Shown here: one piece after another, positions 7,752-11,006 of the stretch
How positions within the stretch are numbered: the stretch's first letter is position 1
Layout: every line of letters begins with the position of its first letter
From: Candidatus Wolframiiraptor sinensis
Lineage (GTDB): Archaea > Thermoproteota > Nitrososphaeria_A > Caldarchaeales > Wolframiiraptoraceae
Direction: 5' to 3'
Assembly: GCA_023268255.1 (NCBI GenBank)
Contig: JALNJX010000002.1
Location: 62,001-126,000, forward strand
Length of the DNA stretch: 64,000 nt
Notes under the pieces: generated by a model
Seen by the model: only the letters and a program-made list of their open reading frames with translations
Database searches by the model: none
Told to the model about the DNA's origin: nothing
Program-made: the position numbers and the translations under genes

Positions 7752-8516
7752 TCACACCTCGATCACGTCCAAATCCATTGGAGCGTAAACCCTTCCACCA
7801 AACTTTTCGCCGAGCTTTTCTAGGTAGCCTCGAAGCTCCTCCTCCATCTCCGGGTAGAGGTGCGTCAATATCAGGATCTCCGGGTTCACCTCGATCGCTA
7901 TTCTCAGGAGGTCTTCCGCCGACGTATGCTTGCCCTTAAGCTTATCCGCCGGGAAGGAGCACTCGTGGATTAGGACTCTTGTTCCGCGGGCGAGCTCCAC
8001 GAGCCTCGGATCAGGCACCGCATCTCCGGAATATGTTATCGATGCCGACGGCAGGTCTATCCTGTATGCAACCCCATTGAAGTGCTCCACGGGCTTGGAT
8101 CTTAAGCTGATGCCGGGCTCGAGCTCCACCATATCATCCCAGATCTCGTGGATGTCTAGAAGATCATGGCAGCCCAAGTCCGATAAGTAGCCGAATAGGT
8201 CTCGATCGGAGATCATGAGGTTTAGCATCCTCGCGATGCCCGGGGGCCCGAAGACCCTGAATGGCTTCCTGCAGCATAGGGCTCTAAGCTTAATGAATGG
8301 AAGGAGATCTGAGACATGATCGAGATGCAGATGCGTTACCAAGATGATGTTGATGCTTCCGGGATCCACGCCAGCCCTCCTGAGCTTCTCCAAGATTCCC
8401 GGCCCTATATCGAGGAGGATTCTAGGCCCATCATCCACCTCGAGCAGTATTCCCGAGGAGAACCTCTGACTTGTGGGTATTATCGAGCCCGTTCCCAGAA
8501 AGGTCAGCCTCGGCAG
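7752..8516 (-). CDS. RNase Z-like metallo-beta-lactamase protein, apparent CTG start
   Basis: About 254 aa. After 'LTFLGTGSIIPTS', the usual N-terminus of RNase Z-like proteins, come 'VTHLHLDHVSD' (HxHxDH metal motif), 'YSGDAVPD', 'HECSF' and 'ILTHLYPE'. It belongs to the COG1234 group but is shorter than classical tRNase Z. The conserved N-terminus lies between an in-frame TAG (8520-8522) and the first ATG/GTG/TTG (GTG, about 8438). The only plausible start there is CTG at 8516 (or 8507), preceded by GGAGGGAG at 8523-8530. Starting at the GTG would delete the first strands of the fold. The TAG is also the stop of the coiled-coil protein, so the gene is the last of the crenactin operon. Confidence 0.8.
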   Translation of the reverse strand: MPRLTFLGTGSIIPTSQRFSSGILLEVDDGPRILLDIGPGILEKLRRAGVDPGSINIILVTHLHLDHVSDLLPFIKLRALCCRKPFRVFGPPGIARMLNLMISDRDLFGYLSDLGCHDLLDIHEIWDDMVELEPGISLRSKPVEHFNGVAYRIDLPSASITYSGDAVPDPRLVELARGTRVLIHECSFPADKLKGKHTSAEDLLRIAIEVNPEILILTHLYPEMEEELRGYLEKLGEKFGGRVYAPMDLDVIEV

Positions 8517-8530
8517 CCGCTACTCCCTCC
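8514..8530 (-). promoter_or_regulatory. Shine-Dalgarno run and CTG start site of the RNase Z-like gene
   Basis: On the minus strand GGAGGGAG (8523-8530) is followed by TAGCGG and then CTG (8514-8516). The TAG ends the upstream gene in the same frame. The arrangement is nearly the same as at moaB (21995-22010). Confidence 0.55.
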
Positions 8531-9212
8531 GCGACAGGATCTCAACCCATGGATTGTCTATGAGGTATGAAGGGAGGCTTCCCCGCGGCTTCACCTCCAC
8601 ACGCGGCCTGGCCTCGGCGCTCTCAACCCCTTTCCTCGCCGTGGGCGGCGTCAAGCCGCTTCTCTCGATTCTGCTCACTTTCTCGACGATCTCCTTGTGA
8701 TCTTTCTCGAGCCTATCGAGCCTCGCCTCGAGCTCCTCGATTACTCGGAGTAGCTTGGAGATCTGCCTCTTCAGCTCGACGATCTCCTGAGCGCCGGCGA
8801 GCGCAGCCTGCTCGCGCACTTCCTGCTTCTCCGAGCCCTCTCTCCTTATCGCAAGCCTAGGCGGAATTATTTCCTCGGCTCCCATCTTGTCGTAGATTAT
8901 CAGCCCGAAGCCATGCAGCATCATGACGTTCTCATCTATCATCTTGGCGTATTTTCGCGGTATGGCTATGCAGACTCCATCGAACTTGGACTTCATCTTC
9001 TCGGCGTGCAGGAGGGCATCTTGAAGAGCGCCCTTGCTCATTAAAGCATCCTCATCCAATATGCTCACGAACACCTCCCTGAATCCATCAGATAATATGA
9101 GCCTGCTCGAGTAGAGCGACTCGGGATCACTTCCTCTCTCGACCTCATAGAATCCCTCCTCCTCGTAGAATGCCGAAATAACATCCTCGGGCTTGAGGCG
9201 GTTACGCGACAT
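8520..9212 (-). CDS. Coiled-coil protein in the crenactin operon (arcadin-2-like candidate)
   Basis: 230 aa, not recognised by family. Residues 1-115 look like a small alpha/beta domain. Residues about 140-190 form a heptad-rich coiled coil ('ELKRQISKLLRVIEELEARL'). A Pro/Arg-rich linker follows, and the chain ends in a short segment 'LPSYLIDNPWVEILSRRE'. The ATG overlaps the end of crenactin by 11 nt, so the two are translationally coupled. In Pyrobaculum, arcadin-2 is a coiled-coil protein whose C-terminal helix binds crenactin. The layout here is similar, but homology cannot be shown by eye. Confidence 0.6.
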   Translation of the reverse strand: MSRNRLKPEDVISAFYEEEGFYEVERGSDPESLYSSRLILSDGFREVFVSILDEDALMSKGALQDALLHAEKMKSKFDGVCIAIPRKYAKMIDENVMMLHGFGLIIYDKMGAEEIIPPRLAIRREGSEKQEVREQAALAGAQEIVELKRQISKLLRVIEELEARLDRLEKDHKEIVEKVSRIERSGLTPPTARKGVESAEARPRVEVKPRGSLPSYLIDNPWVEILSRRE

Positions 9213-10470
9213 ACATCCACCCCTCCATCCTCTCCCATCTCCACTCGTAGTCGTGTGGAACCGCGTAGCCGTATACTATGCATCCCCTCCAGACAGAGTA
9301 TTTCGGGTCCTCGACGATCGAGACACTTGCCCCCTCTATCTCCTTCTCCAGGAGGAGCTGCTTCAACTTCTCATCGGCTCTAACGGCCACGGTCTCGAGA
9401 CCCTCGGGGATGTTCCAGCTGAAGTTGCCGCCCGATAGGAGTATTCTGGAGTATAGGTGGGGCTGAAGCTCGATAGAGCACTTCTCGATCGATGCTATTA
9501 CCGCCTCCGCCATATCCATCATGCCATAAAAGTATGTGTCCCCGAGCTTTACATCGCTGGGCTTCGGCATTCCACGCGTGAAGTAACTCTGGAAGATCTC
9601 GTGGCCCGGATTGAAGACGAACTCGCCTATCAGGAACCTGGTCCACGCCATGTCATCTAAGACTAATTTTATCCTCGTCCCCGGGATCTTCAGCGAGACC
9701 TTGATCTTCTCTGGATTGCTCCTCGCGTATCTGATCGCCTCATCCAGGTTCCTCGGAATGAGCCCTATTTTCTCCTTGACGAGCCTCACGAAGCTCTCCT
9801 CCTTGGCTAGGTCGCCATAGCCCGCATCCTTTAGTATCTCCATCGTGAGCACGTTCGCGGCCGCTCCACCCCTATTCAAGGCTATAACAGCATTCCTCAC
9901 GGGATACATGGAGATCGGGCATATCTGGGTGTTCCCGTGGCCGGACTCGACCACCGTGCATGTCGGGGTCTTTTGAGCGATCGCGACCGCCAGAGGCTGA
10001 GGAATTATGGTAGCGGCCTTAACCAGCACCCTCTCGCGATTGAGCTCTCGGAAGATCTCGAAGAGCCTCTCGTACATGTATCTCGGCGAGACGACTGAGA
10101 TGCTCGCGACGACGTAGAAGCCCTCGAACTCCTCGTCGGGAGGGGCGAAGCTTTCTAAAGCGTACTTTGTGAGCTCCTTTATGACTTTCCACGCCCGCTC
10201 ATCGTCCTTCGCTATGACGCCGTTCCGCATCGGGTAGACCATCCGCTCCACCAGGTCCTCGCGGGACTCTAGGAACCTCGGAATATCCCTGCCCACGACG
10301 ATCTCCCTATTAACGCCCATTATCCTCGACATGAGGGAGCTTCTATCGATGAAGTAGCCCCTGTTCTCGACGATCTCAGGCGTCTCTCCCAGTACTATGG
10401 GCCCGAACTTGAAGTCGCTCGTCCCATAATCCAGCCCGAAGACGTGCTCCCGCTTATACTCCTCGCTCAT
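9202..10470 (-). CDS. Crenactin, archaeal actin-like filament protein
   Basis: 422 aa. I recognise it from residues shared with Pyrobaculum crenactin: 'FGLDYGTSDFKFGPI' (phosphate-1 loop), 'IIPQPLAVAIA', 'ESGHGNTQ' (phosphate-2), 'ALNRGGAAANVLT' (connect/adenosine region), 'WTRFLIGE', 'ILLSGGNFSW' (adenosine loop) and 'YSVWRGCIVYGYA' near the C-terminus. Crenactins form ATP-dependent double-helical filaments related to eukaryotic F-actin. The gene overlaps its upstream neighbour by 4 nt (ATGA) and its downstream neighbour by 11 nt. Its partner set differs from, or has diverged beyond recognition from, the known arcadins. Confidence 0.9.
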   Translation of the reverse strand: MSEEYKREHVFGLDYGTSDFKFGPIVLGETPEIVENRGYFIDRSSLMSRIMGVNREIVVGRDIPRFLESREDLVERMVYPMRNGVIAKDDERAWKVIKELTKYALESFAPPDEEFEGFYVVASISVVSPRYMYERLFEIFRELNRERVLVKAATIIPQPLAVAIAQKTPTCTVVESGHGNTQICPISMYPVRNAVIALNRGGAAANVLTMEILKDAGYGDLAKEESFVRLVKEKIGLIPRNLDEAIRYARSNPEKIKVSLKIPGTRIKLVLDDMAWTRFLIGEFVFNPGHEIFQSYFTRGMPKPSDVKLGDTYFYGMMDMAEAVIASIEKCSIELQPHLYSRILLSGGNFSWNIPEGLETVAVRADEKLKQLLLEKEIEGASVSIVEDPKYSVWRGCIVYGYAVPHDYEWRWERMEGWMYVA

Positions 10471-11006
10471 TTAACCCACCCCATAAGCCTGCTGAATATG
10501 CTTCTCCCGCCCCCCGCTCCGAGAATTTTCTCATGAATTCTCGTGACAGCGCCCGAATTAACCTCCCTCCAGCCAGCTCTATAGGAGATCGTCAAAGCAC
10601 CGTGCCCCGGGTAGGCATCAACCCTAAGCTCCACGCCTGAAAGCTTCACGCTCGACCTGTAAACGCCATCACCTGGAAGCTGCATCTTGAGGCTCTTAGC
10701 GGCCGCCCAAGCATCCCCACCCCTCAAGTGGTAGTAAACGTCAATGTACCAGCACTCCCTGGCGAGGAGGCTTAGGAGGTCCTTGAGATCATAGGCCTCC
10801 GCAGACTTAACGAGGATAATCGCCTCATCGCCCGAGAGGCTGGCCGCCTTAAACTCGGCTTTAAGCGAGCCCCTCAAAATGCTATTTCCCTCAATGGTGT
10901 AGCCGGCGGCCTCTAGAGCTCTCATGAGAGCATCTACTCTCCGGCTGCCTGGCTGAAGTTTGCAGATCAGCCTGATCTCGCGGCCACCGGGCGACCTCTC
11001 CAGCAC
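10467..11006 (-). CDS. Hypothetical protein, first gene of the crenactin operon
   Basis: 179 aa, unrecognised. Predicted alpha/beta by eye, with repeated strand-rich segments ('REIRLICKL', 'DEAIILVKSAE', 'SVKLSGVELRVDAY', 'GALTISYRAG') and a basic, Gly-rich tail ending 'RLMGWVK'. No signal peptide or membrane span. It shares ATGA with the crenactin start, so it is co-translated with it. Position suggests a crenactin regulator or anchor (an arcadin-1-type role), but there is no sequence proof. Confidence 0.55.
   Translation of the reverse strand: MLERSPGGREIRLICKLQPGSRRVDALMRALEAAGYTIEGNSILRGSLKAEFKAASLSGDEAIILVKSAEAYDLKDLLSLLARECWYIDVYYHLRGGDAWAAAKSLKMQLPGDGVYRSSVKLSGVELRVDAYPGHGALTISYRAGWREVNSGAVTRIHEKILGAGGGRSIFSRLMGWVK

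Follow-up and report, generated by a model that had tools for sequence, protein, structure and literature searches.

A variant crenactin operon in Candidatus Wolframiiraptor sinensis with arcadin-2 and a candidate new component, P179

The window analyzed here, a stretch of 64,000 nucleotides (nt) from Candidatus Wolframiiraptor sinensis (assembly GCA_023268255.1, contig JALNJX010000002.1, positions 62,001 to 126,000), contains an arcade-type (archaeal actin cytoskeleton) operon, a variant with one good candidate for a new component. On the minus strand, the gene order is P179, which encodes a protein of 179 amino acids (aa), followed by crenactin, arcadin-2, and a metallo-beta-lactamase (MBL) hydrolase. 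Few prokaryotic proteins are as closely related to eukaryotic actin as crenactin. We know of no established cellular role or attachment points for it, and its named partners are, to our knowledge, arcadins 1–4 only. P179 belongs to a conserved and apparently undescribed family, and we consider it rather probable, judging from gene order and conservation, that the protein has a working role in the crenactin system. A previous reading, made from the sequence alone (hereafter the sequence-only reading), had proposed a variant actin cytoskeleton operon with the 179-aa protein as a new part; the presence of crenactin, arcadin-2, and a conserved, crenactin-linked P179 supports both proposals.

P179 and its linkage to crenactin

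P179 was searched singly and as a profile against Pfam, NCBIfam, and PDB, and no match was obtained. A P179 profile was built from the upstream proteins of three families and run against 398 whole Thermoproteota genomes, 128 of which contain crenactin. Confident matches, defined by an E-value of 1.6e-6 or better, were identified in 28 genomes from seven families, and in every one of them (28/28) the gene is located immediately upstream of crenactin and in the same direction. Matches were found in families f14, f19, f51, and f54, even though none of these had contributed a seed to the profile. A single weak match (E=0.005) was unlinked to crenactin and is probably spurious. With the new members added, the profile picked up a protein of 184 aa encoded upstream of crenactin in family f37 (locus L161, E=8e-11), and family f31 presents a likely further case in the same position. 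Furthermore, the profiles of home-family and distant upstream proteins aligned over 130 columns (hhalign probability 89.5, E=2e-6). Those genomes of the order that gave no crenactin hit (G006, G031, G036, and G039) gave no P179 match either, and a wider search in the order of G363 returned two already known members only.

The suggestion that P179 is a working part relies on its translational coupling to crenactin, its genome-wide linkage, and its persistence at very low identity, as it keeps its place across the seven families at 12–15% identity while the other neighbors change. The sequence-only reading had allowed that the genes flanking crenactin might be found beside it in no other genome, which does not hold for P179. 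It had also recognized no arcadin in the 179-aa protein. Arcadin-1 was ruled out as its identity by an hhalign probability of 0.2% and by a separate arcadin-1 orthologue elsewhere in the genome. In the part of the literature on crenactin and arcadins that was covered, no description of the P179 family was found, and an earlier mention is possible.

The crenactin operon and its neighborhood

The coordinates of the operon are collected in Table 1. The layout described by the sequence-only reading, with a shared ATGA, an 11-nt overlap between the crenactin and arcadin-2 open reading frames (ORFs), and an RNase Z-like gene directly afterward, was confirmed on the minus strand. The 230-aa protein mentioned there is the coiled-coil protein, and the nuclease-fold protein has about 254 aa. 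Compared with the nearest species, P179 is 68–71% identical and crenactin 91–92%, and the frames are kept across the genus; therefore, the arrangement does not consist of chance ORFs. The genome is 1.23 Mb in size, 93% complete, and belongs to the Wolframiiraptor-like Caldarchaeales (Aigarchaeota). The locus neighbors EF-2 and dcd are housekeeping genes. EF-2 is located upstream of P179 on the same strand, and the 72-nt gap between them contains the TATA-like element AAAATATAT, a probable operon promoter.

Table 1. Features of the crenactin operon in the window and of related genes at compared loci (a locus label precedes positions outside the window).
Feature	Position	Strand	Basis
P179 (first gene), 179 aa, GTG start	10467..11006	minus	ORF
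Crenactin, 422 aa	9202..10470	minus	phmmer to 4CJ7, Pfam Actin, NCBIfam crenactin
Arcadin-2 (230 aa), made up of an N-terminal domain, a coiled coil, a linker, and a C-terminal helix	8520..9212	minus	Pyrobaculum profile matches, alignment
MBL-fold hydrolase (N-terminus RNase Z-like; start codon probably CTG)	7752..8516	minus	profile matches, start conservation
ATGA start-stop overlap, P179/crenactin	10467..10470	minus	read from ORFs and sequence
C-terminal motif of arcadin-2, DNPWVEILSRRE, corresponding to the crenactin-groove peptide of PDB 5LY3	8523..8558	minus	
P179 C-terminal basic amphipathic tail SIFSRLMGWVK, candidate membrane-targeting or partner-binding helix	10470..10502	minus	hydrophobic-moment comparison
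TATA-like AAAATATAT, between EF-2 and P179	11042..11050	minus	read from sequence
P179 homologues with C-terminal ribbon-helix-helix-like domain, upstream of crenactin	L150 2909-3637; L153 2867-3565; L154 5186-5956		
Four-cysteine protein	L154 3052-3330; L156 5588-5872; L161 5709-5987; L164 5641-5940; L179 846-1151; also G023, G026		

The assignment of the actin-like ORF to crenactin is close to certain on sequence similarity. It matched Pyrobaculum calidifontis crenactin (4CJ7) over the full length (residues 2–420, E=1.4e-115, phmmer), with 5LY3 also matched, and it is the sole Pfam Actin match in the genome (54.3 bits). The NCBIfam crenactin equivalog is by far the closest curated family; the score of 581.9 bits over the full model lies below its cut-off of 630, a threshold probably intended for a narrower group. 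The nearest named crenactin loci, from ‘Candidatus Wolframiiraptor allenii’ and ‘Ca. W. gerlachensis’, are 91% identical. Additionally, a genome of the same genus contains a second crenactin-like gene (G002:C27:6937-8190), 54% identical to that of the window, which represents either a paralogue or contamination.

The coiled-coil protein encoded by the gene adjoining crenactin is almost certainly arcadin-2, because its profile, its position, and its putative crenactin-binding C-terminal motif agree. In two Pyrobaculum-type genomes, the profile of the coiled-coil family matched the gene that immediately follows crenactin (E=2.3e-5 and 2.8e-4), and alignment with P. calidifontis arcadin-2 showed homology over the N-terminal domain and the coiled coil. 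The window protein ends in DNPWVEILSRRE, a tryptophan-containing helix after an unstructured linker, with ENEWVKILRSKR as its Pyrobaculum counterpart. In P. calidifontis, the 17-aa C-terminal peptide of arcadin-2 (R187–R203) binds the hydrophobic groove of crenactin and depolymerises the filaments (PMC5173319). The 203-aa arcadin-2 of the Pyrobaculum-type genome G059 carries RGGIGENEWVKILRSKR at residues 187–203, which fits the published peptide. Among 60 homologues, 53 presented the motif [DEN]N[PE]W[VILF]x[IVL]L within the last 35 residues, compared with 0 of 3,339 other ORFs. The resemblance to arcadin-2 in layout, noted in the sequence-only reading, is thus borne out by the Pyrobaculum profile matches and the groove motif, and its remark that none of the arcadins was recognizable fails for this protein. 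On this sequence evidence, arcadin-2 is recognizable far outside Thermoproteales, in agreement with the reported Caldarchaeales (Aigarchaeota) crenactin sets with arcadin-1 and arcadin-2 (PMC9723716). The groove-binding helix is kept across the phylum, and crenactin disassembly by arcadin-2 is probably widespread.

The arcadin-1 orthologue of the window's genome was located on another contig (G000:C3, L183 5009-5344; profile E=1.8e-42). Caldarchaeales arcadin-1 sits outside the crenactin locus, beside conserved neighbors of ~130 and ~135 aa (L183 4139-5344 and equivalents in L184–L188), and it is also present in genomes without a crenactin hit. In canonical clusters, arcadin-2 is followed by a helical gene of 60–75 aa, in the arcadin-3 position, and then by a Rad50-like arcadin-4 of ~800 aa; neither follows arcadin-2 at the window locus. 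In the remainder of the 93% complete genome, the sole substantial match to arcadin-4 was a 797-aa Rad50 beside an Mre11-like gene, which was rejected as a candidate. Several compared loci encode a conserved four-cysteine protein of 90–103 aa (VCPED..PVL.TEC..CPKFIRR....C) directly after arcadin-2, where the Rad50-like arcadin-4 was not seen (Table 1); it is possibly a zinc protein in place of arcadin-3. Upstream of crenactin, the arcadin-4-bearing lineages present ~71–78-aa coiled-coil or uncharacterised ORFs (L163 5549-5785; similar in L160, L165, and L172), and family f20 presents a 63-aa MazE/AbrB-like DNA-binding protein directly upstream (L156 3484-3675 and L157 3641-3832).

The homology of the MBL gene begins at CTG 8516, 3 nt past the arcadin-2 stop and behind GGAGGGAG. 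No ATG, GTG, or TTG was observed at this point, CTG is also read there in three sister species, and the listed GTG start (8438) is too far downstream. The start codon thus appears to be this CTG behind a strong Shine-Dalgarno sequence (8510–8530, minus strand; equivalents in L032–L034). The protein was rejected as tRNase Z, with 113.4 bits against an RNase_Z cut-off of 292.95; the real tRNase Z of the genome is another gene (367.8 bits).

C-terminal modules and possible roles of P179

The AlphaFold2 models of P179 (predicted local distance difference test, pLDDT, 87; predicted template-modelling score, pTM, 0.82) and of a homologue from family f14 (pLDDT 86, pTM 0.82) both predict two tandem alpha/beta units, each with a strand and a helix, then antiparallel strands, and then a second helix. 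An internal duplication was undetectable at the sequence level, though the predicted secondary structure repeats. Structure searches with the two models gave no fold-level match. Matches to aspartate kinase ACT, AdoMetDC, and KH structures were dismissed, as their low E-values came with root-mean-square deviations of ~10 Å and template-modelling (TM) scores of 0.2–0.4. TATA-binding proteins (TBPs), which have a similar order of elements, recur among the weak matches; a TBP-like fold for the P179 core was rejected at TM-scores of about 0.24–0.32, against the approximately 0.5 needed for a fold-level match.

The P179 of the window lineage has a flexible linker followed by the 11-residue amphipathic tail, with a helix predicted at residues 168–174 in a low-confidence segment, and similar tails were observed in families f3, f10, and f19. 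The tails were ranked jointly for amphipathicity and hydrophobicity (hydrophobic moment) against the MinD and FtsA tails of E. coli and 843 control C-termini; most members, not all, fall within the FtsA/MinD range, with modest statistics. Members from families f14, f51, and f54 carry, instead of the tail, ~55 residues that bear a ribbon-helix-helix (RHH) signature (SVRVPxxxRExxLxxAxxxGLSxSDxxRxAL), and in L150 helices were predicted at 199–211 and 218–231, after the SVRVP segment. These alternative C-termini suggest a modular tether.

In the mechanism that we prefer, crenactin would assemble into actin-like filaments, and arcadin-2 would dismantle them by inserting its C-terminal tryptophan helix into the hydrophobic groove of crenactin, as shown in Pyrobaculum and expected here from the conserved motif. 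P179, apparently a dedicated protein of the system, would be translated first and coupled to crenactin. Its two tandem alpha/beta units, flexible linker, and exchangeable C-terminal module would let it serve as an adaptor by which crenactin is tethered elsewhere: in the window lineage to the membrane, through the amphipathic tail, and in three other lineages possibly to DNA, through the RHH-like domain. The analysis establishes the identity of the genes, their synteny, the genome-wide linkage, and the predicted fold of P179; we infer the physical contact with crenactin and the tethering to membrane or DNA, and give a tether with exchangeable anchors about an even chance. The wider proposal, that P179 founds an archaeal actin adaptor family with a common crenactin-facing core and a C-terminal membrane helix (most lineages) or DNA-binding RHH (others), is fairly unlikely. 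If true, the lineage would decide whether crenactin is anchored to the membrane or to the chromosome, and a eukaryote-like actin would have a ParR-like DNA-linking adaptor. With its link to crenactin in seven families and its alternative C-termini, P179 offers a direct handle on filament attachment.

Several observations weigh against these interpretations. P179 is missing from many crenactin lineages, other genera of its own family and order among them, so it is not essential to crenactin function generally. It was not found in other crenactin-bearing Caldarchaeales (genus g3 and families f2 and f4), in which arcadin-2 either comes before crenactin or does not adjoin it; because of this absence, P179 is, in terms of gene content, a lineage-variable and not a universal part of the system. 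Most seeds of the P179 profile were picked next to crenactin, so that the independent evidence comprises the four further families and the whole-genome negatives only. In L042, L043, L161, and L162, the amphipathic tail is either weakly developed or missing, and the RHH_1 match of L153 (E=0.0023) reaches 18.3 bits, below the Pfam cut-off of 20.5.

Other roles for P179 can be considered on the same evidence. It may act directly on crenactin assembly, as a nucleator, capper, or monomer-binding factor whose tail enters the groove like that of arcadin-2. The translational coupling is compatible with such a role, a short hydrophobic and basic C-terminal helix after a flexible linker is also the layout of the arcadin-2 binding helix, and the groove is already recognized as a hot spot (PMC5173319). 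However, the P179 tail does not resemble the arcadin-2 motif and is exchanged for the RHH-like domain in three lineages, which leaves direct action a real but minority possibility. The RHH-like C-termini of L150, L153, and L154, the recurrence of TBPs among the weak fold matches, and the MazE/AbrB-like protein upstream of crenactin in another lineage would fit a protein that regulates its own operon as a transcriptional or DNA-binding factor, in which case the RHH forms are ancestral and a TBP-like core binds DNA. Given the low TM-scores to TBPs and a window P179 without the RHH domain, we regard this role as distinctly unlikely.

It is very unlikely that P179 is an ordinary gene of unrelated function, kept beside crenactin by a shared operon history. 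In favor of this, dcd and the MBL gene are likewise kept next to the locus within the home family; however, P179 holds its position across divergent families while its neighbors change, and the pattern of a true bystander is that of the MBL gene, which, unlike P179, occurs elsewhere throughout the order. Nearly all Caldarchaeales have MBL orthologues with 38–50% identity at sites not linked to crenactin; G031, G036, and G039, which gave no crenactin hit, are among them, and family f3, where P179, crenactin, and arcadin-2 are retained, yielded none. Orthologues spread through the order at sites apart from crenactin make a co-transcribed bystander the most likely reading of the MBL enzyme, and the earlier proposal of the nuclease-fold protein as a second new part is not sustained. 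Its direct coupling after arcadin-2 in loci of three genera would be expected of a true working part of the actin system, for example one acting on a regulatory nucleotide or RNA ligand, a role that the unlinked orthologues make highly improbable.

Comparison with known systems

The Pyrobaculum arcade cluster consists of arcadin-1, crenactin, arcadin-2, arcadin-3, and arcadin-4. It shares with the window a small-protein gene directly upstream of crenactin and arcadin-2 directly after it, with the putative groove-binding C-terminal helix kept. In the window, however, the upstream gene is P179, with arcadin-1 on another contig, and the locus is without arcadin-3 and arcadin-4, the MBL gene being in their place. 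The reported Caldarchaeales sets have the same gene content as the window genome, namely crenactin, arcadin-1, and arcadin-2 (PMC9723716); the papers searched yielded no mention of P179, which heads the window operon. The similarity to the membrane-targeting tails of FtsA and MinD lies in the candidate basic amphipathic helix, short and C-terminal, that follows the linker in P179; the protein cores are unrelated, and membrane binding by P179 is a candidate function derived from its sequence. ParM-ParR, a plasmid actin with a ribbon-helix-helix adaptor, is comparable in terms of how it works only, with the adaptor gene beside that of the actin and an RHH-like domain in the P179 of three lineages. 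For the P179 core, no relation was seen in sequence or in fold, and the window P179 is without the RHH domain; in the window operon, the predicted groove-binding peptide is carried by arcadin-2.

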